From a virus, in the IMG/VR virus record IMGVR_UViG_3300031772_000226, positions 1 through 27,616 of that record: 27,616 nucleotides of DNA. One strand, 5' to 3'. A program made the translations under genes and the position numbers. Positions 6,798 to 26,006 of this stretch are shown in pieces. The notes under the pieces were generated by a model, which saw only the letters and a list, made by a program, of their open reading frames with translations, was not told where the DNA came from and searched no databases. Position 1 is the first letter of the stretch, and each line of letters opens with the position of its first letter.

Positions 6798-7142
6798 TTA
6801 GAACGAACTTAATGCAAATTTACCTTCGTCGCCATCTTCATCGTCATCCCCGTCTTCACTTTCGTCACTATCGTCGTTATCTTCAATGAAAAATTCTTGT
6901 TTTTGATACTGATACTCGCGGTTGCGTTGATCAAGCCTCGACATCAGGCAGAGAGCTGCAGAGAATCCTTCAATAGTTATATCCGCACACTCTTCAGGAG
7001 CGCGTGCACTGCCTTGATAGTCCACACACTCAGTTAAAAGCTGCTGACCTACAATCAGTGCTGCGATCTTATCTAATCTAATATTCTGTTCTTTTTGAAG
7101 CTCGATAAGCTGATCAAGTTTTTGGAATAAACGCTTACTCAT
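6798..7142 (-). CDS. Small protein with coiled-coil start and strongly acidic tail
   Basis: One hundred and fourteen residues. The N-terminus (LFQKLDQLIELQKEQNIRLDKIAALI) is a clear amphipathic helix or coiled coil. Residues 87-107 are almost all D and E, after which the chain ends GKFALSSF. An acidic region close to a C-terminal phenylalanine recalls tails that dock replication partners, but no known family was recognised. Its ATG overlaps the stop of the methyltransferase-like gene (ATGA), so the two are coupled. Confidence 0.7.
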   Translation of the reverse strand: MSKRLFQKLDQLIELQKEQNIRLDKIAALIVGQQLLTECVDYQGSARAPEECADITIEGFSAALCLMSRLDQRNREYQYQKQEFFIEDNDDSDESEDGDDDEDGDEGKFALSSF

Positions 7143-7675
7143 AGTTTGAGGTCTTGCGGACGGTGCCAGCCTACTTCGAAATCAATCTGTGTACTAACTG
7201 CAGCAGCGCTTGCTTTTTGGAAAACGAACCACGCAGAAGTTACAGGATCTTTTGCAGTAGTACCATCTGCACGAAAAGATGGCCTAGGCGAGAGGATCTT
7301 AATGTTTGTCAAAAAAGATTTCTGTAAAAAATCTTCGCGTGCTCGTGTAGGCTCCAAGAACGTTAACCTATCCAGAATGCACACACCTTTTGTAGCGACT
7401 TGGAGCCCACACTCTGTGATCCACTTTGTGTAGTCTTTCATTCCTTGGGTTATTGCGATTACCCAATCAACTTTTCCTTTATGTGACGCCCACCAAACGA
7501 GATCTATCAGATTTTCTTCGCAATCATTTGTTGTAAATTCAATGATTCCTGTTTTGCGGACTTGTTTTTCGAGCTGCCCGTCAAAGTCACAAGGAAGCAG
7601 AACCGCACCATCGATTAGACCAGAGTTCCCGATAGGATCAAAGATATATCGGGGGACGTGGTAAAAACCTGACAT
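7139..7675 (-). CDS. Degenerate DNA adenine-methyltransferase-like protein
   Basis: From ATG at 7675 this is 178 residues and follows the pattern of a family of phage and cyanobacterial N6-adenine-type methyltransferases. Signs are an N-terminal PxYI..P lead, a motif-I position (LLPCDFDGQLEKQV), a TTND string, a WV-initiated strand, LDRLTFLEPTRAREDFL, and RPSFRADGT..DPVTSAWFVF. In active members motif I reads P-C-x-G-D-G and motif IV reads NPPF or NPPY; here motif IV is replaced by VIAITQGM and motif I lacks the glycine pair. The protein is probably not an active methylase. The ATG shares the CATG at 7673-7676 with the divergent nblA start; a longer frame to 7762 would lie antisense to nblA. 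Confidence 0.65.
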   Translation of the reverse strand: MSGFYHVPRYIFDPIGNSGLIDGAVLLPCDFDGQLEKQVRKTGIIEFTTNDCEENLIDLVWWASHKGKVDWVIAITQGMKDYTKWITECGLQVATKGVCILDRLTFLEPTRAREDFLQKSFLTNIKILSPRPSFRADGTTAKDPVTSAWFVFQKASAAAVSTQIDFEVGWHRPQDLKL

Positions 7676-7907
7676 GTCTGAAAAGATGCTGGATAAACTT
7701 CGTTCGTACTTGACGTTAGAGCAAGATTTCACACACCGTGCTTTTTTAGACAGCATGGACAAACTGAGTCCGAAGGAGTCTCGTGAGCTCCTGGGGATTA
7801 TATATGCAAATTATTTGATAAGAGGAAGGATAATTCAAAACATCATAAAATACTGTGAAGCGTACGGAATTCCTCTATCATTGTTTGATGATCTCTTGGA
7901 TATGTAG
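7674..7907 (+). CDS. nblA: NblA-like phycobilisome degradation protein
   Basis: Seventy-seven residues matching the NblA pattern: YLTLEQDFTHRAFLDSM, then KLSPKESRELL and IIYANYLIRGRIIQNIIK, which parallels the LTLEQEF ... REQAQ..L..LY..MMVREN core of cyanobacterial NblA. NblA is a small helical adaptor that triggers proteolysis of phycobilisomes; viral copies are known in freshwater cyanophages such as Ma-LMM01. Here it extends about 15 residues beyond the usual C-terminus (YGIPLSLFDDLLDM). ATG 7674 is taken; ATG 7686 is an alternative nearer to the usual length. It is the only plus-strand gene in a 24-kb minus-strand region, and its first part is antisense to the upstream extension of the methyltransferase-like frame. 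Confidence 0.8.
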   Translation: MSEKMLDKLRSYLTLEQDFTHRAFLDSMDKLSPKESRELLGIIYANYLIRGRIIQNIIKYCEAYGIPLSLFDDLLDM

Positions 7908-7968: not shown

Positions 7969-8799
7969 TCAGAAATCTAGACCTGCGGCTTGAAGAGCCG
8001 CTTTTTGTTCTTCGGTTAGTTCTTTTTTGCTGGATGCCTTTTTAGCTGTTGGAGGTTCGGCCTCTTGAGCCTTGGGACCAGGAGTCCCTGCTCCCGCAGG
8101 CAGAGCAGCTAATCCGACAGGTGCCATGCCGTCTAGTCTCTTGGGGTTCGCTTCCATAAACGCATCCTTAAGGGCAGCGTGGTCTTCTCCCAAAGGAAGT
8201 TCAACCAGATTTGAACCGGGGATAGTACTGCGTAAAGCAGATGCCACCAAATCTCCTGCACCACCGCCAAGCCACGCTCCAATATCCTCGATGAGCTTGC
8301 GCTCTTCATCTGTTTGCGCAGGGCGGTCTTTAAATTCAAGAGCATTGTAGTTAATCTTTGCACCGTCAGCACCCGTCATCGGGTCCCTCTCGTTGAAAGA
8401 CTTCTGCACAAATTTTGTTGATGTAATTATTTCACCAACATTAATGCGGTTGTTGTACAGCGTCTGGAAGTACGAGATAAAGTTTTTTTGACTCGACTTA
8501 CCGCTAATGATGCTAGTACAAACGCAGCGTGGAGGAAGTAAACGATGAGAAGGTGAAACACCAATGTAACTAACACGAATAAACTCTTCGTGCGAGCGCA
8601 TACCGAGGTTACCGAAATACGGTGTAAACCCAAGTAAGACAAACTCGATCGGTATCCCGTTATCGTTCGAGTCTGTGATGGCCGCTTCTGGGTCGCTATC
8701 GGATTTCCAACGGCGTGCTTGAAGATCGATTCGAAGTGTGTGCGGTGGGATTTGACAGAGAATCTCATCAGCCGAAAATTTGCCAGCAATAAAAACCAT
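7969..8799 (-). CDS. Hypothetical protein next to SSB
   Basis: A 276-residue protein. Residues 1-130 are beta-rich (RIDLQARRW, IPIEFVLLGF, EEFIRVSYIGVSP), then an alpha-helical middle with GAWLGGGAGDL, then a low-complexity alanine/proline/lysine linker (residues 235-258) and an end helix finishing AALQAAGLDF. The layout, a folded core, a flexible linker and a short conserved-looking tip, is like ssDNA-binding or recombination mediators, and it lies 9 bases after the SSB-like gene. No family assignment is made. Transcription ends at the hairpin just downstream. Confidence 0.75.
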   Translation of the reverse strand: MVFIAGKFSADEILCQIPPHTLRIDLQARRWKSDSDPEAAITDSNDNGIPIEFVLLGFTPYFGNLGMRSHEEFIRVSYIGVSPSHRLLPPRCVCTSIISGKSSQKNFISYFQTLYNNRINVGEIITSTKFVQKSFNERDPMTGADGAKINYNALEFKDRPAQTDEERKLIEDIGAWLGGGAGDLVASALRSTIPGSNLVELPLGEDHAALKDAFMEANPKRLDGMAPVGLAALPAGAGTPGPKAQEAEPPTAKKASSKKELTEEQKAALQAAGLDF

Positions 8800-8808
8800 G
8801 ACCGTAGT

Positions 8809-9456
8809 TTAAAGAGAGAAGTCCAGTGAACCAAGTGCGGCCGTTGACACCTTTCCTTTGTCGGGATCGGCGGCTTTGGCAGGAGCAGCTTTTTTGCTGC
8901 GTGGGAGATAGAGAATTTTCTCAACCCCATAGTTAAGATACTTCCGATTTTCTTTTTCGCTAGTGCTTACGCGCCCTAGAGCGATAGTGGGTGTACCAGG
9001 TGGCAGGTCAGCAAGCTGTGAAGACAGTGCATCCCACGCTGTAAGTTTGAACCATGAGGTTTCGCCCTTTTCGTCTTGCCAAGCAAGCGAGCGGTTGGTG
9101 ACTGTGTTATCTCCTAGTTGAGTTTCCTCTGAGACAGGACCTAGCCCTCCCGTGGAGACAAACATGTTCAAGGCAAGAAGATCATCCCAGTTCTCGTTTA
9201 CCACCACGAGCATAGGCTGCATTTGAAGCACACCATCAGGAGTGGTCTTAGTTGGTCCTATGGCGAAGATGGTTTGCTTTTCTTCAAGTTTTTTAAGAAT
9301 CTTACCTACGTAATGATCCTCCTTCATGGAGAGCTGAACTTTGGTTGCAATACGTCGGTCGCTTGAGGGTAGAGACTCAGCTAAGACGTGTGCAACTTTG
9401 TTTTCGTCGACTTCTGCTGCATCAGTGACGCGCAGACCCAGCATAAAGATGTTCAC
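8809..9456 (-). CDS. SSB-like single-stranded DNA-binding protein
   Basis: A 215-residue protein with an OB-fold-like region at about residues 95-187: a glycine turn (FVSTGGLGPV), an outgoing sheet (TNRSLAWQD), ETSWFKLTAWDAL with W135, F136 and W141, and TPTIALGRVSTS. This WF-x-x-x-AW then GR order is that of SSB proteins. The N-terminal 90 residues (MNIFMLGLRVTDAAEV) start like an SSB but are diverged, so two OB-like halves are possible. A lysine/alanine linker leads to a short LDFSL tail. GTG 9456 is used; ATG 9444 would drop four residues. Expected to coat ssDNA at the phage fork. Confidence 0.6.
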   Translation of the reverse strand: MNIFMLGLRVTDAAEVDENKVAHVLAESLPSSDRRIATKVQLSMKEDHYVGKILKKLEEKQTIFAIGPTKTTPDGVLQMQPMLVVVNENWDDLLALNMFVSTGGLGPVSEETQLGDNTVTNRSLAWQDEKGETSWFKLTAWDALSSQLADLPPGTPTIALGRVSTSEKENRKYLNYGVEKILYLPRSKKAAPAKAADPDKGKVSTAALGSLDFSL

Positions 9457-14403: not shown

Positions 14404-14430
14404 AAAAAAGGGGCGCTTTAGCGGCGCCCC
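14404..14430 (-). terminator. Intrinsic terminator or attenuator directly before polA
   Basis: On the minus strand a perfect seven-pair stem GGGGCGC/GCGCCCC with a seven-base loop is followed by six T, then ATT and the polA ATG. It closes the unit that starts at the 20275 promoter. Because polA begins immediately, the hairpin must also affect polA expression unless its transcript starts within the hairpin. Confidence 0.9.
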
Positions 14431-14451
14431 CCAAGGTTAGTGGTTCGCGCG

Positions 14452-15264
14452 TCAAAAAGCGTAGAGCTTTTTCTCGCGAATGCGGCTACTCCAGCGGTGG
14501 CTGATAAAGTCCGAAATGTCGCCCCAATGCTTAGCCACTTTCTGACCCATAGCGGTAGGGGATACGGCGTAAACGGTCCGCTGTAGTCGCTTACTACCTT
14601 CGTCGAGTTCTTTATCGTTGCTTCCGAACTCGATGGTCTCTTTCATCTCTACGAGACCCCACTCCTTCAGGAGAGCTGCTCCGTCACGGATCGACGTATA
14701 CATCGGCGATGCGTGGTAACAAGCGTTACGAGGGACGTTAGGACCTTGGTTCAGGGTATGGTAGTGGCCATCGCCATCCTTGACAAACCCCACAAAGCAC
14801 TGAGAGTCAGGACTAACAGAGCTCCGGTAAGCCATGCCGTTCACACAGAGCGTCGTTATCTGACGCAAAGTTCTTGTGTGACCATCGCTAATACCTTCGA
14901 GGATCATCGCAGCGCCGATTGCTTTAAGACCTCCCATTGTTAAAAGGGAGTCAATGGCCTGGGTAGGTTGTTCGATAACAACGCTGGGTTTGATGTGAGA
15001 GATGCGCTTAGCATCAGTACGGCGATACTGACGCTTGCGAGGTGTCTCCACTCCTTCAATCGCAAACCGAGCAGCCAAAGAGGCCAGCGTGGTGTTTTTG
15101 GTTGCCACGCTGATGGAAAAGAGTTTCTTGGCGTCAATCATTGAAGGATCGACGTGTTCTGCAATATCGATGGTGATTGCAGCTTCTTTTCCAGCAGCGT
15201 TAAGGAGAGCCGTGGCTTCGCTGTTGCCCAGTGTGGTGTCACCGAGTCTGAACTTGACTTTCAT
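14452..15264 (-). CDS. Hypothetical protein, probable winged-helix C-terminus
   Basis: A 270-residue protein. The first 75 residues look compact (KVKFRLGDTTLGNSEATALLNAA, then ISVATKNTTLASLAARFAIEG), then a very basic stretch PRKRQYRRTDAKR follows. The second half has a MGGLKAIGAAMILEGIS helix pair and, near the end, DGAALLKEWGLVEMKETI, typical of a winged-helix recognition helix and wing. DNA binding is inferred. It is the last gene before the terminator, in the same unit as the RavA/ViaA-like pair. Confidence 0.65.
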   Translation of the reverse strand: MKVKFRLGDTTLGNSEATALLNAAGKEAAITIDIAEHVDPSMIDAKKLFSISVATKNTTLASLAARFAIEGVETPRKRQYRRTDAKRISHIKPSVVIEQPTQAIDSLLTMGGLKAIGAAMILEGISDGHTRTLRQITTLCVNGMAYRSSVSPDSQCFVGFVKDGDGHYHTLNQGPNVPRNACYHASPMYTSIRDGAALLKEWGLVEMKETIEFGSNDKELDEGSKRLQRTVYAVSPTAMGQKVAKHWGDISDFISHRWSSRIREKKLYAF

Positions 15265-15345
15265 GTAATGAATGGGTGGAACGAAGGAAGCCTACCTATC
15301 CAATACAAAGACTGTTGAAAATTACAGATTTTCTTAATATTTCCC

Positions 15346-15774
15346 TCACGTAGAGCTGCTAGCCGCCACATCTTTCACCAACGTCATGTTGTCATACCAT
15401 GTTATCAGGTCTCTTGATATTTGCACAGCTATTAGCTTGAAATCGAGTTCACTAAGCATTAATGCCATCTCTATGTCGGCTTTGTTGCCAAGTTTTTTGA
15501 CTCCATAAATTTTATATAAAAACTCACTCAATAATGTGCAGTGTTCCGTAACATCTTTATCGATAAATCTTGTAACGTTTATAAGCTCAGTTGTCGGCAC
15601 ATAAATAAGTACTGCTTCTTTAAATTTAAACAGTGAAGTTTTATCATTATGAAGATTGTGATAAGTGCGGTATAGCTGTTGTGTTACCCAATTATCTAGT
15701 TCAAATTTTTCAGTTGCTGGTGAGTATTCAGCTTCTAACCTTCTAATTGCCGCCGCTTCTAAATGTCTGGTCAT
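15346..15774 (-). CDS. Hypothetical helical protein
   Basis: One hundred and forty-two residues, mostly helix (HLEAAAIRRLEAEY, FELDNWVTQQLYRTYHNL, TLLSEFLYKIYGVKKLG, IAVQISRDLITWYDNM). No family recognised. It lies 53 bases past the VWA protein gene in the same unit and could be a partner of that machine. Confidence 0.65.
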   Translation of the reverse strand: MTRHLEAAAIRRLEAEYSPATEKFELDNWVTQQLYRTYHNLHNDKTSLFKFKEAVLIYVPTTELINVTRFIDKDVTEHCTLLSEFLYKIYGVKKLGNKADIEMALMLSELDFKLIAVQISRDLITWYDNMTLVKDVAASSST

Positions 15775-15827
15775 TTGACTAACAGTAGCTGTTTCCTAAT
15801 CTATGCTGCACAGTTAAAACAAACGCT

Positions 15828-17369
15828 TTACCGAATAGCATTCTGAAACAATTTTGCACTTTCAGGATCATTTGTAGTGTCTATAGTGTGTACAAAATCA
15901 CTAAACTCTTTAAGTACATGTGCTTGTCTACCGATACAAAAGCTAGTCCACTGCAGTCCATGCTCTTGTTTAAAAGCATTTAAACGACGGACAAATGGAT
16001 CCGAAACCTCCGCATTACCATCTGTGATCATCAAAATATCAGATCTCTCCACAAAATTAGTCTTGTTGAGAGCGTGGTCAATCACCGAGCAGAAAGAAGT
16101 CCCTCCTCTTGTCGTCCAGCTCAACACAAAATTCAACAATCTTTCATTATCGGTTCTGTCTTTATCCAAGTGAATACTTTTTTGAATCATGGTGTCGAAG
16201 AGGTGAATGTGTGTTGCACGATTTTGTTGTAAGCATTCTTCCGCAATTACATAAGCAATAGCTTTTGACCAGAGCTCAGATTCACCAGTCATTGAACCAC
16301 TAATATCGATGTACAAAACTACCGGGCCTTTGTCTAACTCTTTAATTTTGGCTTCATAATCTTTCGTAAGTAAAGTTTTCTGGCTGTATTTCAGTGCGAA
16401 AAGAGCACGTCCTTTCTCTGTAGCAGCTAATGCAATTTCTACTGGAAAAGCCTTTATAACTTCATCAGAAAACTTGGCACCTACAATGTCGCTATAGCTA
16501 GTTTGTGATTTACGTGCACGCTTTCGATCTGTCCAGGCTTGACGTAAGGCACCAAGCCTACGCACTAACTCTTTTAATCTTGGATTATTGCTTAGCTTTT
16601 TAGCAAGATTTCGTTTTTGTTCAAGATCATTAAAAATAATACCTTTCCCGCTTTCAGCACCAGCCAGCTGACCCATAGCATCTTGAATGTCTTTCGCAGC
16701 TTGGTGTGCACGATCGACTGCTTTGTCTATTTGAGGTTGAACTACCTCGCTAGCTTGCAACATGGCTTGTTCAATTTGCTGGCCTAATTCTTTACCTTTA
16801 TGGCGAAGCTCAACTGCTTTAGCATCATCGCCTTCTTTCTTGGCTTGCATAAACTGTTCTCTAAGTTCTTGGAGTTGTTTACCTGCATCAGCGAGCATGG
16901 ACGCATCTAGGAGCCCTTTTTGAATTTGAGTTTCAATTACTTCGCTCAACTCGTTAAGTAAATTTACAGCGTTGTTTCCTGCTGTGAATTGGTCTCCGAC
17001 TGAGATCCCGACCAGGTGTGGCCATGCGGGAGAATCACAAATCTGAATAAAAAGACTTACCCAGAACGCAGACTCGGGTTTGTACCCTTTAGGAAATGCC
17101 GGGTTAAGGCCATTTTGTTTGGCATGTAAGTAAGCTTCTATTTCATCAAAGTTGATGACCGTAGTTACGTGCCCTCCGTTGTAGAGAAAATCAAAGAGCT
17201 CTTTGCCAAATCGAGACAACTGTTTGATGTTGTAGTGATCTTCTATGTACTTAACAATGGGGCGAGCATCACGGATAAAGTCATCCCATAAAAAATCTGA
17301 AAGTGCCGATACAGCAAGCAAAAAAGGTTCGTTGTTGACTAAGCGCAAAAACTCGTTGTTGGTTTTCAT
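15828..17369 (-). CDS. ViaA/CoxE-like von Willebrand factor A protein
   Basis: A 513-residue protein with a helical N-terminal two thirds, including a long coiled-coil region at about 145-235, and a C-terminal VWA domain. The MIDAS metal site is complete: DISGSM (D355, S357, S359), T424 in RGGTS and D450 in MITDG. The layout, with the VWA domain at the C-terminus preceded by a helical region, is that of ViaA and other MoxR partner proteins. Its start overlaps the stop of the AAA+ gene upstream as ATGA, so both are made together. Expected to act as substrate adaptor of that ATPase. The target in a phage is unknown. Confidence 0.85.
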   Translation of the reverse strand: MKTNNEFLRLVNNEPFLLAVSALSDFLWDDFIRDARPIVKYIEDHYNIKQLSRFGKELFDFLYNGGHVTTVINFDEIEAYLHAKQNGLNPAFPKGYKPESAFWVSLFIQICDSPAWPHLVGISVGDQFTAGNNAVNLLNELSEVIETQIQKGLLDASMLADAGKQLQELREQFMQAKKEGDDAKAVELRHKGKELGQQIEQAMLQASEVVQPQIDKAVDRAHQAAKDIQDAMGQLAGAESGKGIIFNDLEQKRNLAKKLSNNPRLKELVRRLGALRQAWTDRKRARKSQTSYSDIVGAKFSDEVIKAFPVEIALAATEKGRALFALKYSQKTLLTKDYEAKIKELDKGPVVLYIDISGSMTGESELWSKAIAYVIAEECLQQNRATHIHLFDTMIQKSIHLDKDRTDNERLLNFVLSWTTRGGTSFCSVIDHALNKTNFVERSDILMITDGNAEVSDPFVRRLNAFKQEHGLQWTSFCIGRQAHVLKEFSDFVHTIDTTNDPESAKLFQNAIR

Positions 17370-18550
17370 GATGAAATTTCAGAAATAGATTTAGCCACGG
17401 ATCGACTAGACGATTCGATTAACTGAGTTAACTTTGTTGCAGTTTGTCTGGCGTGAGCAGAGATTCTGTACTGACCCGATTCAAGAATGCTGTCTAGCTT
17501 GCCCGAAAGCGTGTCAAGGTCTCTGTGCATCTTGCGGAGTTTGCCGACAAGGCGATTCAAGTCTTCAACACTACGTGACTCTTGAGAGTGGAGAGCATGG
17601 TATTCCGTAAGAATCCCACTGTGTGCTCGCTTAATACTTTCTAGCAATCTTTCAGCAGTAGGTACTGCCTGCTCTAAAACCTCTTTGATTGCCTGGATGT
17701 CGTCTTTGTTCTGATAAACAATGTGAACCAGAGATCTGTGAAGATGTTCAGGGAACAATTCTTCGTCACCTTGTACCATAGCCCAACCACGCAAAAATTT
17801 AAGAATCTGTACACGGCGGCGATCGCTGATAGTAATGCCTCGGGCGGTTAGGAGATCGATTACTTGGTTGAACGAATCAAGAAAATCATCGCTAACCCTT
17901 AGTGAACAAACCTCAGCTTGGAGAGTTTGTAGATCTTCAAAAGTTAAGCTTGACTTAACTACAGGGCGTTCTTTAATACCCAGAGCCCAGGCATCAAGAC
18001 TTCGTTTAGATGTTGGTTTTTTCAATAGGTCTACTGTTGGTCGGAACAAGAAGCGATCACAGAAAGCTTGCAGTGATTCTTCTTGAGGGAAACTATTTGT
18101 TGCTGCAACGATTGATTGAATGGGAGTCTCAATCACATCACGTCCGTTGTTGAACGTGCGCTCGTTGAGAATTGTCAGCAACGAATTAAGGACAGCAGAA
18201 CTACCTCGGAACAGCTCATCGAGGAAGGCTATGTTTGTTGTTGGCAGGTAACCTCTAACGTCTCTAACGTATTCATCTTTCAGCAACTTCGACACAGCAA
18301 CTGGACCAAACAATTCACTTGGATCCGTCGTGGGTGAGAGTAGATAACCAAAGAATTGAGATCCTTTGAAGCCACTTGATACGGCGCGAACAAGCTCAGA
18401 CTTACCAGTGCCAGGCAATCCAAATAAGAAAGCATTTTGCTTTGTGATAAGCGAAGCAAGCAGACCATCGATGATGTCTTCCCGCTCAAGGAAGCTTGCA
18501 TTTAATGAGGAACGGAGATTTTGTAGATTAGTAAAAAGTTGGTCGTTCAT
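17366..18550 (-). CDS. MoxR/RavA-like AAA+ ATPase
   Basis: A 394-residue protein. The AAA+ core has Walker A GLPGTGKS (44-51), Walker B AFLDE (108-112), sensor 1 AATN (149-152) and an arginine-finger-type CDRF (164-167). The stretch FLDELFRGSSAVLNSLLTILNERTFNNG closely follows the RavA pattern of the MoxR group. A helical C-terminal part of about 190 residues follows, where RavA has its partner-binding domain. ATGA coupling to the VWA gene supports a RavA-ViaA-like pair. In bacteria such pairs act as chaperone-like machines on metalloprotein and respiratory complexes; the phage use is not known. Confidence 0.9.
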   Translation of the reverse strand: MNDQLFTNLQNLRSSLNASFLEREDIIDGLLASLITKQNAFLFGLPGTGKSELVRAVSSGFKGSQFFGYLLSPTTDPSELFGPVAVSKLLKDEYVRDVRGYLPTTNIAFLDELFRGSSAVLNSLLTILNERTFNNGRDVIETPIQSIVAATNSFPQEESLQAFCDRFLFRPTVDLLKKPTSKRSLDAWALGIKERPVVKSSLTFEDLQTLQAEVCSLRVSDDFLDSFNQVIDLLTARGITISDRRRVQILKFLRGWAMVQGDEELFPEHLHRSLVHIVYQNKDDIQAIKEVLEQAVPTAERLLESIKRAHSGILTEYHALHSQESRSVEDLNRLVGKLRKMHRDLDTLSGKLDSILESGQYRISAHARQTATKLTQLIESSSRSVAKSISEISS

Positions 18551-18577
18551 TTGTTTAAAAGTGTTTGAGTTGTTAAA

Positions 18578-19789
18578 TCAAAAATCAAGATCGTCTACTG
18601 AGTCAGCTTTGATAGTTTGTACCTCCTCTATAAGATCCTCTAAATTTGTTGAATGAGCTTTGATTAGTTCACATCGCTGGTCAAACAGAGTCTGCAAGTG
18701 GCGTGCTCTCTGTTGATAAACGTCCTTTTCAACCTGTAGTTCACGGTGCAATTCATCAAGTTGATCTTGATTATCTGCTGAGCTAATCTTACTTAGAAGA
18801 TCACGGTAGGTGCCAGACAGAGCTAAGGAACGCTTTAAGGCTTCAAGCCCCTCGCTTGTGTTGCGAGAGTCAACGATTGCCTGGAGCTCGCTACGGATAT
18901 CAACTTTTAATTCTGCATACTTCTTGTAAGCCTTGTCTTTAGCCTTAGCTGAATCTGACTGAAGTTGAACGCCCACATCAAGTAAATCATTCGATAGCTT
19001 TGAAAGATTTTCAAAGCCAGGGCAGTGTCGTGTGATCAACTGCAGTGTTTCAGCAGTTATCTGCCAAGAACCTCTACGCTTTGTACCACCTGTTTGTCGT
19101 TCACCAACTTTGGAAGAGACACGTACATCTAAATCATCCAATAGATCTGCAGCTTTAGCCAGAACACGATCAGCTGCACCTTCGCGTGCAGCTTCTAATA
19201 CCTCAGTTGTATTAAACATCGCGGCTTCTTGAATCGCCGTGGAAATGGTGTGCTCTTCTTTACTTTTAGATACTCCTATACTCACAGGATTTGGTCCGAC
19301 TACAAACACACGAATCGGATTATCAAACTCTTGTTTAGTAGGAAATATTTTTAAGTAAGCTTCTTTAGCTAGCTTGAAACCTTCAGTATCATCCTTAAAT
19401 AAAGGCTCTAGGAATCCTTCAACAGTGTTGGACCACCTGGTGTATTCACCTAGCCACAGTTTATTTAACTGTTCGTTGTAGCCAGCTGCATCAGAACGAA
19501 TCTTGGCGATTCTTTCCATTGCCTCTTCAAAATAATCTTCGTGAAGGAAGTGAACATCTCCATTGTGGATGGTGCACTCATCGTACAGTTTGCGTTGCTC
19601 TATGCGCAGCAGGTTGAGAAAGTCTTTGAGTTTACCTGATAAATTAGGACGCACAGAAACAGATTGTTGCTTCTCCAGCACATCAATAACACTGTTAGGC
19701 AGCTGGAGATCGACCATTTTGATCTGAGTGCTCTGCCTTACCGAAGCGCTGACAGAGCAGTGAAGAAGAAAGATTTTGTCGTTGTTCAT
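18578..19789 (-). CDS. Coiled-coil protein, possibly DUF3150-like, partner of the AAA+/VWA pair
   Basis: About 403 residues from ATG 19789; a GTG at 19795 would give a GTGA overlap with the upstream stop. The N-terminal 160 residues (LSGKLKDFLNLLRIEQRKLYDEC, then LHEDYFEEAMERIAKIRSDAA) resemble the layout of DUF3150 proteins, which are often encoded next to MoxR and VWA genes; this link is from memory and needs a profile search. The rest is alpha-helical and coiled-coil (320-400). The chain ends DSVDDLDF, an acidic tail with terminal phenylalanine like those of SSB-type proteins. It lies 27 bases upstream of the AAA+ gene. Confidence 0.7.
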   Translation of the reverse strand: MNNDKIFLLHCSVSASVRQSTQIKMVDLQLPNSVIDVLEKQQSVSVRPNLSGKLKDFLNLLRIEQRKLYDECTIHNGDVHFLHEDYFEEAMERIAKIRSDAAGYNEQLNKLWLGEYTRWSNTVEGFLEPLFKDDTEGFKLAKEAYLKIFPTKQEFDNPIRVFVVGPNPVSIGVSKSKEEHTISTAIQEAAMFNTTEVLEAAREGAADRVLAKAADLLDDLDVRVSSKVGERQTGGTKRRGSWQITAETLQLITRHCPGFENLSKLSNDLLDVGVQLQSDSAKAKDKAYKKYAELKVDIRSELQAIVDSRNTSEGLEALKRSLALSGTYRDLLSKISSADNQDQLDELHRELQVEKDVYQQRARHLQTLFDQRCELIKAHSTNLEDLIEEVQTIKADSVDDLDF

Positions 19790-19791
19790 GA

Positions 19792-20217
19792 TCACTTAAG
19801 GCGACGGAAGACGGTGGTAATTTTGTCAGTAATGAGATCGATAGCGCCAGTAAGATCAAGTTGTTTGATCAAACTGTCCCGCTCAATTTTGGCAATCTTG
19901 AGCTTGCGCTCAAGGTCAGCAATTTTCTCGTTGAGCTTGTCGATTTTTGGGTGAGGTGAAGGGACACGATCAACCCGAACAACGATGTTTGTGCGGAATT
20001 CGGGGAACTTGAACAGGGACTCCTCTCCTTTGAATACTGAGAGATTGTGTCCACCGTGTTCCGCGTGGCATAGCAACGTAGTCAGGTTGCTGCGTGCTGC
20101 TTCGTACTCTATGCCGAAGCTTCCGTTAAGCTCAGCCAAAGCAACATCGCAGGCGTCGTAACGCTCAGCGCTGATGCGTCCCTGTTCAACCAGGGATTGT
20201 GTAGTGATCTTACCCAT
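19792..20217 (-). CDS. Small coiled-coil protein, first gene of the AAA+/VWA unit
   Basis: One hundred and forty-one residues. The first 70 residues are a mixed domain (RYDACDVALAELNGSFGIEYEA, CHAEHGGHN), then a clear coiled coil at about 90-120 (KIDKLNEKIADLERKLKIAKIE). No known family recognised. It is preceded by a good promoter with a leader of about 50 bases and its stop overlaps or abuts the next gene, so it starts the operon. Confidence 0.7.
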   Translation of the reverse strand: MGKITTQSLVEQGRISAERYDACDVALAELNGSFGIEYEAARSNLTTLLCHAEHGGHNLSVFKGEESLFKFPEFRTNIVVRVDRVPSPHPKIDKLNEKIADLERKLKIAKIERDSLIKQLDLTGAIDLITDKITTVFRRLK

Positions 20218-20274
20218 GTGATGTGATTAAGAGGGAACGCACCACGTTAAGGGCCGGTGCCGCCCATGCACAGC

Positions 20275-20303
20275 AATGTACATCCTTCTGCTCACCTTGT
20301 CAA
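20275..20303 (-). promoter_or_regulatory. Sigma70-type promoter for the AAA+/VWA operon
   Basis: On the minus strand TTGACA (20303-20298), a 17-base spacer and TACATT (20280-20275). It faces the gene starting at 20217, with a predicted leader of about 50 bases. This is one of the two best promoter matches in the window. The rest of the 258-base gap (20304-20475) is AT-rich with T/A runs and no frame. Confidence 0.8.
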
Positions 20304-20475: not shown

Positions 20476-20991
20476 TTACATAAGTCCCTTACTACGAGAT
20501 ACTTTTGCATCAAAGTTATAGCGCCCTGTGTGCCTGTAGCTCATCCGAGGTTCAGCAGACATCTCTGTAAAGATGATCTGACCGCATCTCATACCAGGCC
20601 AGAGTGGAAACGCCGAGAACTGTTTAGCGTTCTTAAACTCAAGCGTTAGCACCGAGTTGTTAAAACCAGGGTCGATATAGCCGGCCATAAGGTGCTCCAG
20701 ACCAGCACGTGCGAGTGAAGACTTCAATGCAAACTTTGCGCAAATATCATCTGGAATGTTAAAGACTTCGATTGTTTCAGCAAGGATAAATTCATTTGGC
20801 TGCAGTAAAAATGGGTTGGATCTTGTGTGTTCCGAAATATCTTTTGCCAGTAGGCCACCATCTTTTACTTCGATGTAGAAGTTTGTGCCAAGAGTTACAT
20901 CAAGACTCGCAGGGTTAAGCAGCGTGGGATCATAGGGTTTAACCATACCGCCCTCGCAGAGAGCTTCGATTTGCCAGTCAGGGAGAACCAC
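20476..20991 (-). CDS. dcd: dCTP deaminase, Dcd/dUTPase family
   Basis: A 171-residue protein of the trimeric dUTPase-like fold. Motifs are LNPASLDVTLG (26-35), KSSLARAGL (90-98), AGYIDPGF (103-110), and VLTLEFKN with E118 in the catalytic glutamate position of dCTP deaminases. Length and the SLDVTLG motif point to dCTP deaminase rather than a plain dUTPase. It would convert dCTP to dUTP and so feed dTTP synthesis for phage DNA. Starts with GTG at 20991, 24 bases past the MarR-like gene. No strong terminator was seen after it. Confidence 0.88.
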   Translation of the reverse strand: MVLPDWQIEALCEGGMVKPYDPTLLNPASLDVTLGTNFYIEVKDGGLLAKDISEHTRSNPFLLQPNEFILAETIEVFNIPDDICAKFALKSSLARAGLEHLMAGYIDPGFNNSVLTLEFKNAKQFSAFPLWPGMRCGQIIFTEMSAEPRMSYRHTGRYNFDAKVSRSKGLM

Positions 20992-25933: not shown

Positions 25934-26006
25934 GGGGGTCTAGCTATCTGGTGAAAGCGGTCGACTCATAATCGATTTCAGGTGAGTTCAATCCTCACGA
26001 CCCCCA
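25934..26006 (+). tRNA. tRNA with CAU anticodon, probably tRNA-Ile2 (AUA-reading)
   Basis: A full cloverleaf of 73 bases: acceptor GGGGGTC/GACCCCC, a D arm GCT/AGC, an anticodon stem GTCGA/TCGAT with loop CTCATAA (anticodon 25967-25969), a T arm GTGAG-TTCAATC-CTCAC and discriminator A. The 3' CCA is not encoded. CAU may be elongator Met or Ile2, where lysidine makes it read AUA. The CGACTCATAATCG core equals that of E. coli tRNA-Ile2, and the nearby partial plus-strand gene uses AUA codons at least four times. Ile2 is favoured, not proven. Confidence 0.92.

Follow-up and report, generated by a model that had tools for sequence, protein, structure and literature searches.

The Locus and Its Genes

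The window considered here is a whole phage contig of 27.6 kb (27,616 nucleotides; IMG/VR record IMGVR_UViG_3300031772_000226), which carries a predicted operon for a MoxR-type AAA+ ATPase, a VWA protein and several partner proteins directly in front of a gene for a family-A DNA polymerase. D141, C405, MoxR, VWA, B142, A270 and then polA follow each other in this order, all on the minus strand. The genes and signals are (coordinates in the window; aa, amino acids):

20476..20991, minus strand: dCTP deaminase gene, which lies close to the cassette in roughly half of the contigs (32/65)
20275..20303, minus strand: predicted sigma-70-type promoter (TTGACA-N17-TACATT), lying 86 bp before D141
19792..20217, minus strand: D141, 141 aa, with a predicted C-terminal coiled coil; directly upstream of C405 in all relatives (67/67 scored polA contigs)
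18578..19795, minus strand: C405, the third component, 405 aa, with a helical, DUF3150-like predicted fold (AlphaFold2, Foldseek, plasmid homologues)
17366..18550, minus strand: MoxR AAA+ ATPase with a RavA-type core, without LARA and RavA_C (bpMoxR profile, hhalign, motifs, tree)
15828..17369, minus strand: VWA protein with a C-terminal VWA domain containing a MIDAS (profile, alignment, Foldseek)
15346..15774, minus strand: B142, unknown and poorly conserved protein, an operon gene outside the core machine
14452..15264, minus strand: A270, unknown protein without family match, which keeps company with polA
14408..14432, minus strand: predicted intrinsic terminator-like hairpin with T tract, adjoining the polA start codon
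12505..14400, minus strand: polA, family-A DNA polymerase (PF00476, 1.1e-63), syntenic partner of the cassette

The start codon of VWA and the stop codon of MoxR overlap as ATGA, as read in the initial annotation of this DNA, and the overlap is retained in most relatives. Among relatives, the gap between C405 and MoxR can be as short as a few bp and as long as about 950 bp (e.g., about 9186–10133 in L077). The six genes from D141 to A270 had been taken for a complete, self-contained set, a description that has to be narrowed. B142 shows only 23–35% identity in distant relatives; because it evolves fast and is undetected in a number of relatives, it is outside the machine proper. A270, for which no family was found in profile scans and whose C-terminal part may have a winged-helix-like pattern, stays with polA. 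The conserved unit is thus D141-C405-MoxR-VWA, and the whole is fixed before polA rather than self-contained.

Conservation and Linkage to the DNA Polymerase

The loci obtained from searches of IMG/VR fall into 113 groups, a few of which are unrelated polymerase hits. D141, C405, MoxR, VWA and A270 all lie upstream of polA in every contig in which this PolA is preceded by more than 6.5 kb of DNA (67/67), and D141, C405 and VWA are present in all 65 MoxR contigs with flanks (65/65). Contigs obtained from the PolA scan alone, whose loci had not come up in the earlier scans and whose upstream parts are short, have A270 and then VWA, followed by MoxR where the contig is long enough. In four genomes the 8 kb that follow the cassette contain neither A270 nor polA; in these D141-C405-MoxR-VWA is intact and the polymerase lies elsewhere in the record (4/4), and in both of the split-block genomes checked a fragment or copy of A270 stands beside polA (2/2). 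Because of these four split genomes, D141-C405-MoxR-VWA is regarded as one unit and A270-polA as another.

An 84-kb relative places the cassette at about 29–35 kb, in a rightward block together with polA and a gene for a 923-aa primase-helicase. The endolysin, fibre, portal-like and terminase genes of this relative are oriented leftward and lie elsewhere, at least 14 kb from the cassette. This map bears on the possibility that the cassette encodes a virion-assembly chaperone, like p618/p892 of the Acidianus two-tailed virus (ATV) (PMC4124505), a role that has also been suggested in group 2.2 jumbo phages (PMC7824862). Indeed, p618-p892 is likewise a viral MoxR plus VWA pair, the MoxR of the window matches the MoxR-type ATPase of ATV in tblastn, and Foldseek matches of the VWA model include p892. 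ATV differs in being an archaeal virus whose pair is concerned with extracellular tail development and has no known C405. Considering also that the cassette of the mapped relative is on the opposite strand from the distant lysis and structural genes, and that no synteny with structural genes was found in the stretches examined, a role in virion assembly is considered improbable.

The isolate with the most similar terminase is Synechococcus phage S-EIV1 (53%), which also has a primase and an exonuclease in common with the lineage. It is for these reasons that a cyanobacterium is the likely host. D141, C405, MoxR, VWA and this PolA were undetected in S-EIV1, and by this comparison it looks as if the block had been transferred as a unit. 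The S-EIV1 gene that precedes polA was considered as a homologue of A270 and rejected.

Promoter, Terminator and Selection

The initial annotation placed the genes in one transcription unit, running from the TTGACA-N17-TACATT promoter to a strong terminator. In the single sequence of the window neither class of site is found above chance: there are 11 promoters where 13.3 are expected and 7 terminators where 8.9 are expected. What makes both predicted signals credible is their conservation across relatives. Of 47 non-redundant relatives, 31 have TTGACA-N16-18-TAnnnT at 66–93 bp before D141, where 0.14 would be expected from shuffling, and the spacer is 17 in every case found there. The hairpin with T tract between A270 and polA is present in 37/42 relatives, its stems diverging in sequence with their complementarity kept. 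In many relatives the hairpin runs up to the start codon of polA, and no Shine-Dalgarno sequence is evident between the two; this placement suggests attenuation or an unusual translation of polA across the lineage.

The ratio pN/pS is 0.12–0.16 for MoxR, VWA and C405, by which measure the trio C405-MoxR-VWA is under strong purifying selection. Promoter and selection both have a bearing on host takeover, i.e., on a machine expressed from a sigma-70 promoter that would remodel or inactivate a host complex, such as RNA polymerase, a membrane complex or one of photosynthesis. The promoter kept across relatives belongs to the housekeeping sigma-70 class and is therefore consistent with early expression, and those MoxR-VWA pairs of bacteria that have been characterized have cellular complexes as their targets (PMC10585395, PMC9976466). 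It should be noted, however, that genes for host takeover usually turn over fast, whereas the trio is strongly constrained, and that a universal tie to one polymerase lineage and a location in the replication block would not be expected of them. Host takeover is therefore regarded as unlikely, although it is an alternative to be taken seriously.

The MoxR ATPase and the VWA Protein

MoxR belongs to the Pfam family bpMoxR (5e-55), which is also the family of Escherichia coli RavA (1.5e-56). Walker A (GxPGTGKS) and the DE of Walker B (D111, E112) do not vary in 36 divergent homologues, nor do N152, D165-R166-F167 and S242-D243-R244-R245. Walker A and B, sensor 1, the arginine finger, sensor 2 and a bpMoxR/AAA_5-type profile are all found, so that the protein qualifies as an AAA+ ATPase and the profile search keeps it in the MoxR group, in agreement with the initial annotation. 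CobS/CobT, which show weak profile similarity, were rejected as closest kin, and a DNA-level search of phages gave no match. Several records labelled as phage that contain RavA/ViaA matches (H8–H11) appear to be Salmonella or E. coli host DNA.

The VWA protein gives a weak but consistent VWA_CoxE profile match in all 42 family members (42/42). Its MIDAS, described earlier as intact, has the residues D355, S357, S359, T424 and D450, all five of which are unvarying in 42 sequences. The model of the protein has a low mean confidence (pLDDT 69), for which reason its Foldseek matches are used only at the level of the fold family; besides p892 they include a VWA protein of Podoviridae sp. ct2iq11.

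That the two proteins are RavA-ViaA-like, as first proposed, is correct for the AAA+ core and in part for the VWA protein. RavA-ViaA of E. coli, whose binding partners are LdcI, fumarate reductase and membrane lipids, also consists of an AAA+ protein of this core subfamily and a protein with a C-terminal VWA domain with MIDAS, encoded by adjacent genes. In hhalign MoxR aligns with RavA at 99.85% over 262 columns, and VWA aligns with ViaA over columns 231–502 only, i.e., over the C-terminal ~260 columns, which correspond to the VWA region of ViaA. However, LARA and the C-terminal domain of RavA are absent from MoxR in a Pfam scan that detected both in E. coli RavA, and in hhalign the N-terminal part of VWA does not align with the N-terminal region of ViaA, so that the reading as a genuine RavA-ViaA chaperone of bacterial origin, taken up by the phage, fails on the defining domains. 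The phage set also has a third, obligatory partner (C405) and is a viral core gene set, and its MoxR groups with proteins from plasmids (see below) rather than with RavA, albeit on long branches. We therefore consider such an acquisition very improbable.

The Third Component

No Pfam or PHROG family corresponds to C405, which also has no match among isolate phages; when all C405 members were scanned against Pfam and PHROG, just weak matches of the coiled-coil type (e.g., LemA) came up. Its description as DUF3150-like in the initial annotation finds support in structure and none in sequence profiles: the AlphaFold2 model is good (pLDDT 84), and a named DUF3150 protein is at rank 2 in Foldseek (prob 1.00, E 3.8e-5) but with TM-scores of 0.24–0.34, and DUF3150 (PF11348) gives no HMMER match at E 10. 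Because the TM-scores are low, membership is withheld, and the predicted DUF3150-like fold is taken as a supported lead. A fold search against the PDB gave nothing significant. The best viral fold matches include a protein from Podoviridae sp. ct2iq11, a phage that also has a VWA protein among the fold matches of VWA. In the literature searched, no paper uses the name DUF3150.

The C-terminal residue of C405 is an unvarying phenylalanine, usually as Asp-Phe, in all of the non-redundant phage members (39/39), and it is preceded by a mostly acidic, variable tail. Such an end resembles the tails of the single-stranded DNA-binding protein (SSB) and of T7 gp2.5. An SSB-like coupling tip and a ligand of the VWA MIDAS are equally tenable hypotheses for it. 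The DUF6744 neighbour of the MoxR-VWA pair of a Moorella phage and gp20 of phage N4 were tried as C405 homologues and rejected.

Related Trios on Cyanobacterial Plasmids

A scan of the genome collection for exact C405 peptide patterns, which would miss the diverged plasmid forms, found none. A tblastn search of plasmids with C405 led to cyanobacterial plasmids, on which genes for a C405-like protein, an AAA ATPase and a VWA protein stand in the phage order: pCHRO.01 of Chroococcidiopsis thermalis, pA of Chroococcidiopsis CCNUC1 and pREC4 of Acaryochloris marina are the plasmids named (loci L280, L281 and L284 in Chroococcidiopsis and L285 in Acaryochloris). The neighbourhood search proposed with the initial annotation, for MoxR, VWA and the 405-residue partner, thus finds the trio together in IMG/VR phages and also on these plasmids. 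The three proteins are homologous over most of their length and are encoded in the same order and on the same strand. In profile comparisons of phage with plasmid proteins C405 gives 98.7% and 98.4%, MoxR 100% and VWA 99.9%, the last including the N-terminal part, and the phage C405 HMM finds Chroococcidiopsis plasmid proteins at 6.8e-24 at best. In the MoxR tree, which has long branches, phage and plasmid proteins form one supported group apart from RavA, and the plasmid trios are better relatives of the phage set than RavA-ViaA. The plasmid trios differ from the phage set in lacking D141, A270 and polA, and the plasmid C405 homologues end in AGF. On the Chroococcidiopsis plasmids MoxR and VWA are separated by HigA or HigBA genes; one copy there (L281) is broken, and one Acaryochloris locus (L286) consists of C405 alone. 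Judged by these sequences, the trio belongs to the core of a phage lineage that is uncultured and probably infects cyanobacteria, and it is accessory, and partly decayed, on plasmids.

The plasmid trios adjoin HigBA, AbiE and recombinase genes, which leads to the question whether phages adopted a plasmid-borne ternary module to counter defence or to exclude superinfecting phages. MoxR-vWA ternary conflict systems, which like the phage set combine MoxR and VWA with a third protein (VMAP etc.), do exist and are found in such (multicellular) bacteria (PMC7159879). At curated cut-offs, Pfam detected no VMAP, FtsH, STAND, beta-propeller or effector domain among the domains it covers in C405, VWA or MoxR, and PADLOC-DB gave weak matches for MoxR only (E 0.003–0.007), none for the other proteins and none to a defence system. 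The phage copies are, moreover, uniform, core and unswapped, unlike conflict genes. A conflict system is therefore quite improbable, and for the role against host defence that had been suggested early on no support was found in the PADLOC and Pfam scans.

MoxR-VWA Pairs of Other Phages

Other phages with MoxR-VWA pairs also have them among genes of DNA metabolism (CL131, N4, Moorella). For example, the pair of CL131 directly adjoins a gene for the beta-clamp of DNA polymerase III, and the pair of the Moorella phage MTATph1 has genes for ribonucleotide reductase and a resolvase within several kb. Both pairs are homologous to MoxR and VWA (the MTATph1 VWA protein matches over 435 columns), but at both loci C405 is missing and LPD29 or DUF6744 neighbours are found in its place. 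In N4, a phage with its own DNA polymerase, gp24-gp25 is an AAA plus VWA pair adjoining a dCTP deaminase gene; both are core genes present on middle transcripts (PMC4193335). A distant relative of the window (L097, 11491–13880) has VWA, a small open reading frame and dCTP deaminase, which recalls the order gp24-gp25-dCTP deaminase. The profile similarity of the window proteins to gp24-gp25 is weak, however: gp25 has a DUF2201_N metallopeptidase domain that is absent from the window VWA, and gp24 matches AAA_5 only weakly. On these comparisons the set is best called a three-component variant of the MoxR-VWA kind, distinct from RavA-ViaA by domain content, from VMAP-type systems as far as the Pfam scans show, from PADLOC-listed defence systems and from the gp24-gp25 type.

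Other Genes of the Window

The replication block also encodes two highly conserved unknown proteins, g276 (7969–8799; 76–90% in relatives) and g215a (8809–9456; 62–90%). The C-terminus of g276 is LDF in many relatives but not in all, so its terminal phenylalanine is not conserved. By eye g215a appears OB-fold-like, yet it has no SSB profile match. Neither protein is supported as the phage SSB by Pfam SSB, Enc34 SSB or the PDB. A protein encoded at 7139–7762 (minus strand) weakly matches a DNA methyltransferase PHROG family (3e-06), and a tRNA-Met (CAT) gene lies at 25934–26006 (plus strand), beside the point where the genes switch to the plus strand.

Proposed Function

We tentatively propose, giving it a little less than an even chance, that C405, MoxR and VWA together with D141 constitute a three-component AAA+ machine with a core function in the replication module of a large uncultured phage lineage, which would remodel a replication complex during infection. 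From conservation and context, a replication complex is most likely the client, because the cassette is so constantly joined to the polymerase gene and lies within the replication block. Among the options mentioned initially, replication is the one best supported by the synteny with polA and by the block. By analogy with NorQ-NorD, in which the AAA+ ring is bound by its VWA partner, whose MIDAS is required for the target but dispensable for attachment to the ring (PMC9976466), MoxR may drive the machine, with VWA as its adaptor and with C405 and D141 providing specificity for the client. MoxR would form a hexameric motor on which VWA docks, with the MIDAS metal gripping an acidic ligand; C405, with its acidic tail and phenylalanine end, and D141 would present or select the client; and ATP hydrolysis would assemble, load or strip a DNA-replication complex, most plausibly the polymerase/primase-helicase assembly. 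The hexamer, the formation of the complex, the client and the action in replication are what we infer here.

Several points weigh against this proposal. Many of the scored contigs were found via the cassette itself, so that the co-occurrence count is biased, and the whole-genome map and the S-EIV1 comparison come from one genome each. Synteny speaks for co-inheritance, not for a common client, and the proposal is drawn from sequence and context. The MoxR-VWA pair of ATV has been tied experimentally to the development of the virion tail (PMC4124505). And the plasmid copies stand beside recombinase and toxin-antitoxin genes and lack PolA, which implies that the machine can work outside phage replication. 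It is in addition conceivable, though we think it rather unlikely, that the set represents an unrecognized class of replisome-remodelling machines that is obligatory in an abundant cyanophage lineage and in which the C405 tail, as an SSB-like tip or as a MIDAS ligand, couples the ring to the DNA polymerase or helicase.

MoxR-VWA pairs are known to act as chaperones on metalloenzymes and membrane complexes, and a few viruses use them for virion assembly. A conserved third partner and the constant association with a phage DNA polymerase would point to a client class that is new for the family. With three proteins, intact active sites and a conserved operon, the system is compact and testable, and C405 provides a lead on DUF3150-type proteins. 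A common machine also connects the uncultured phage lineage to cyanobacterial plasmids.

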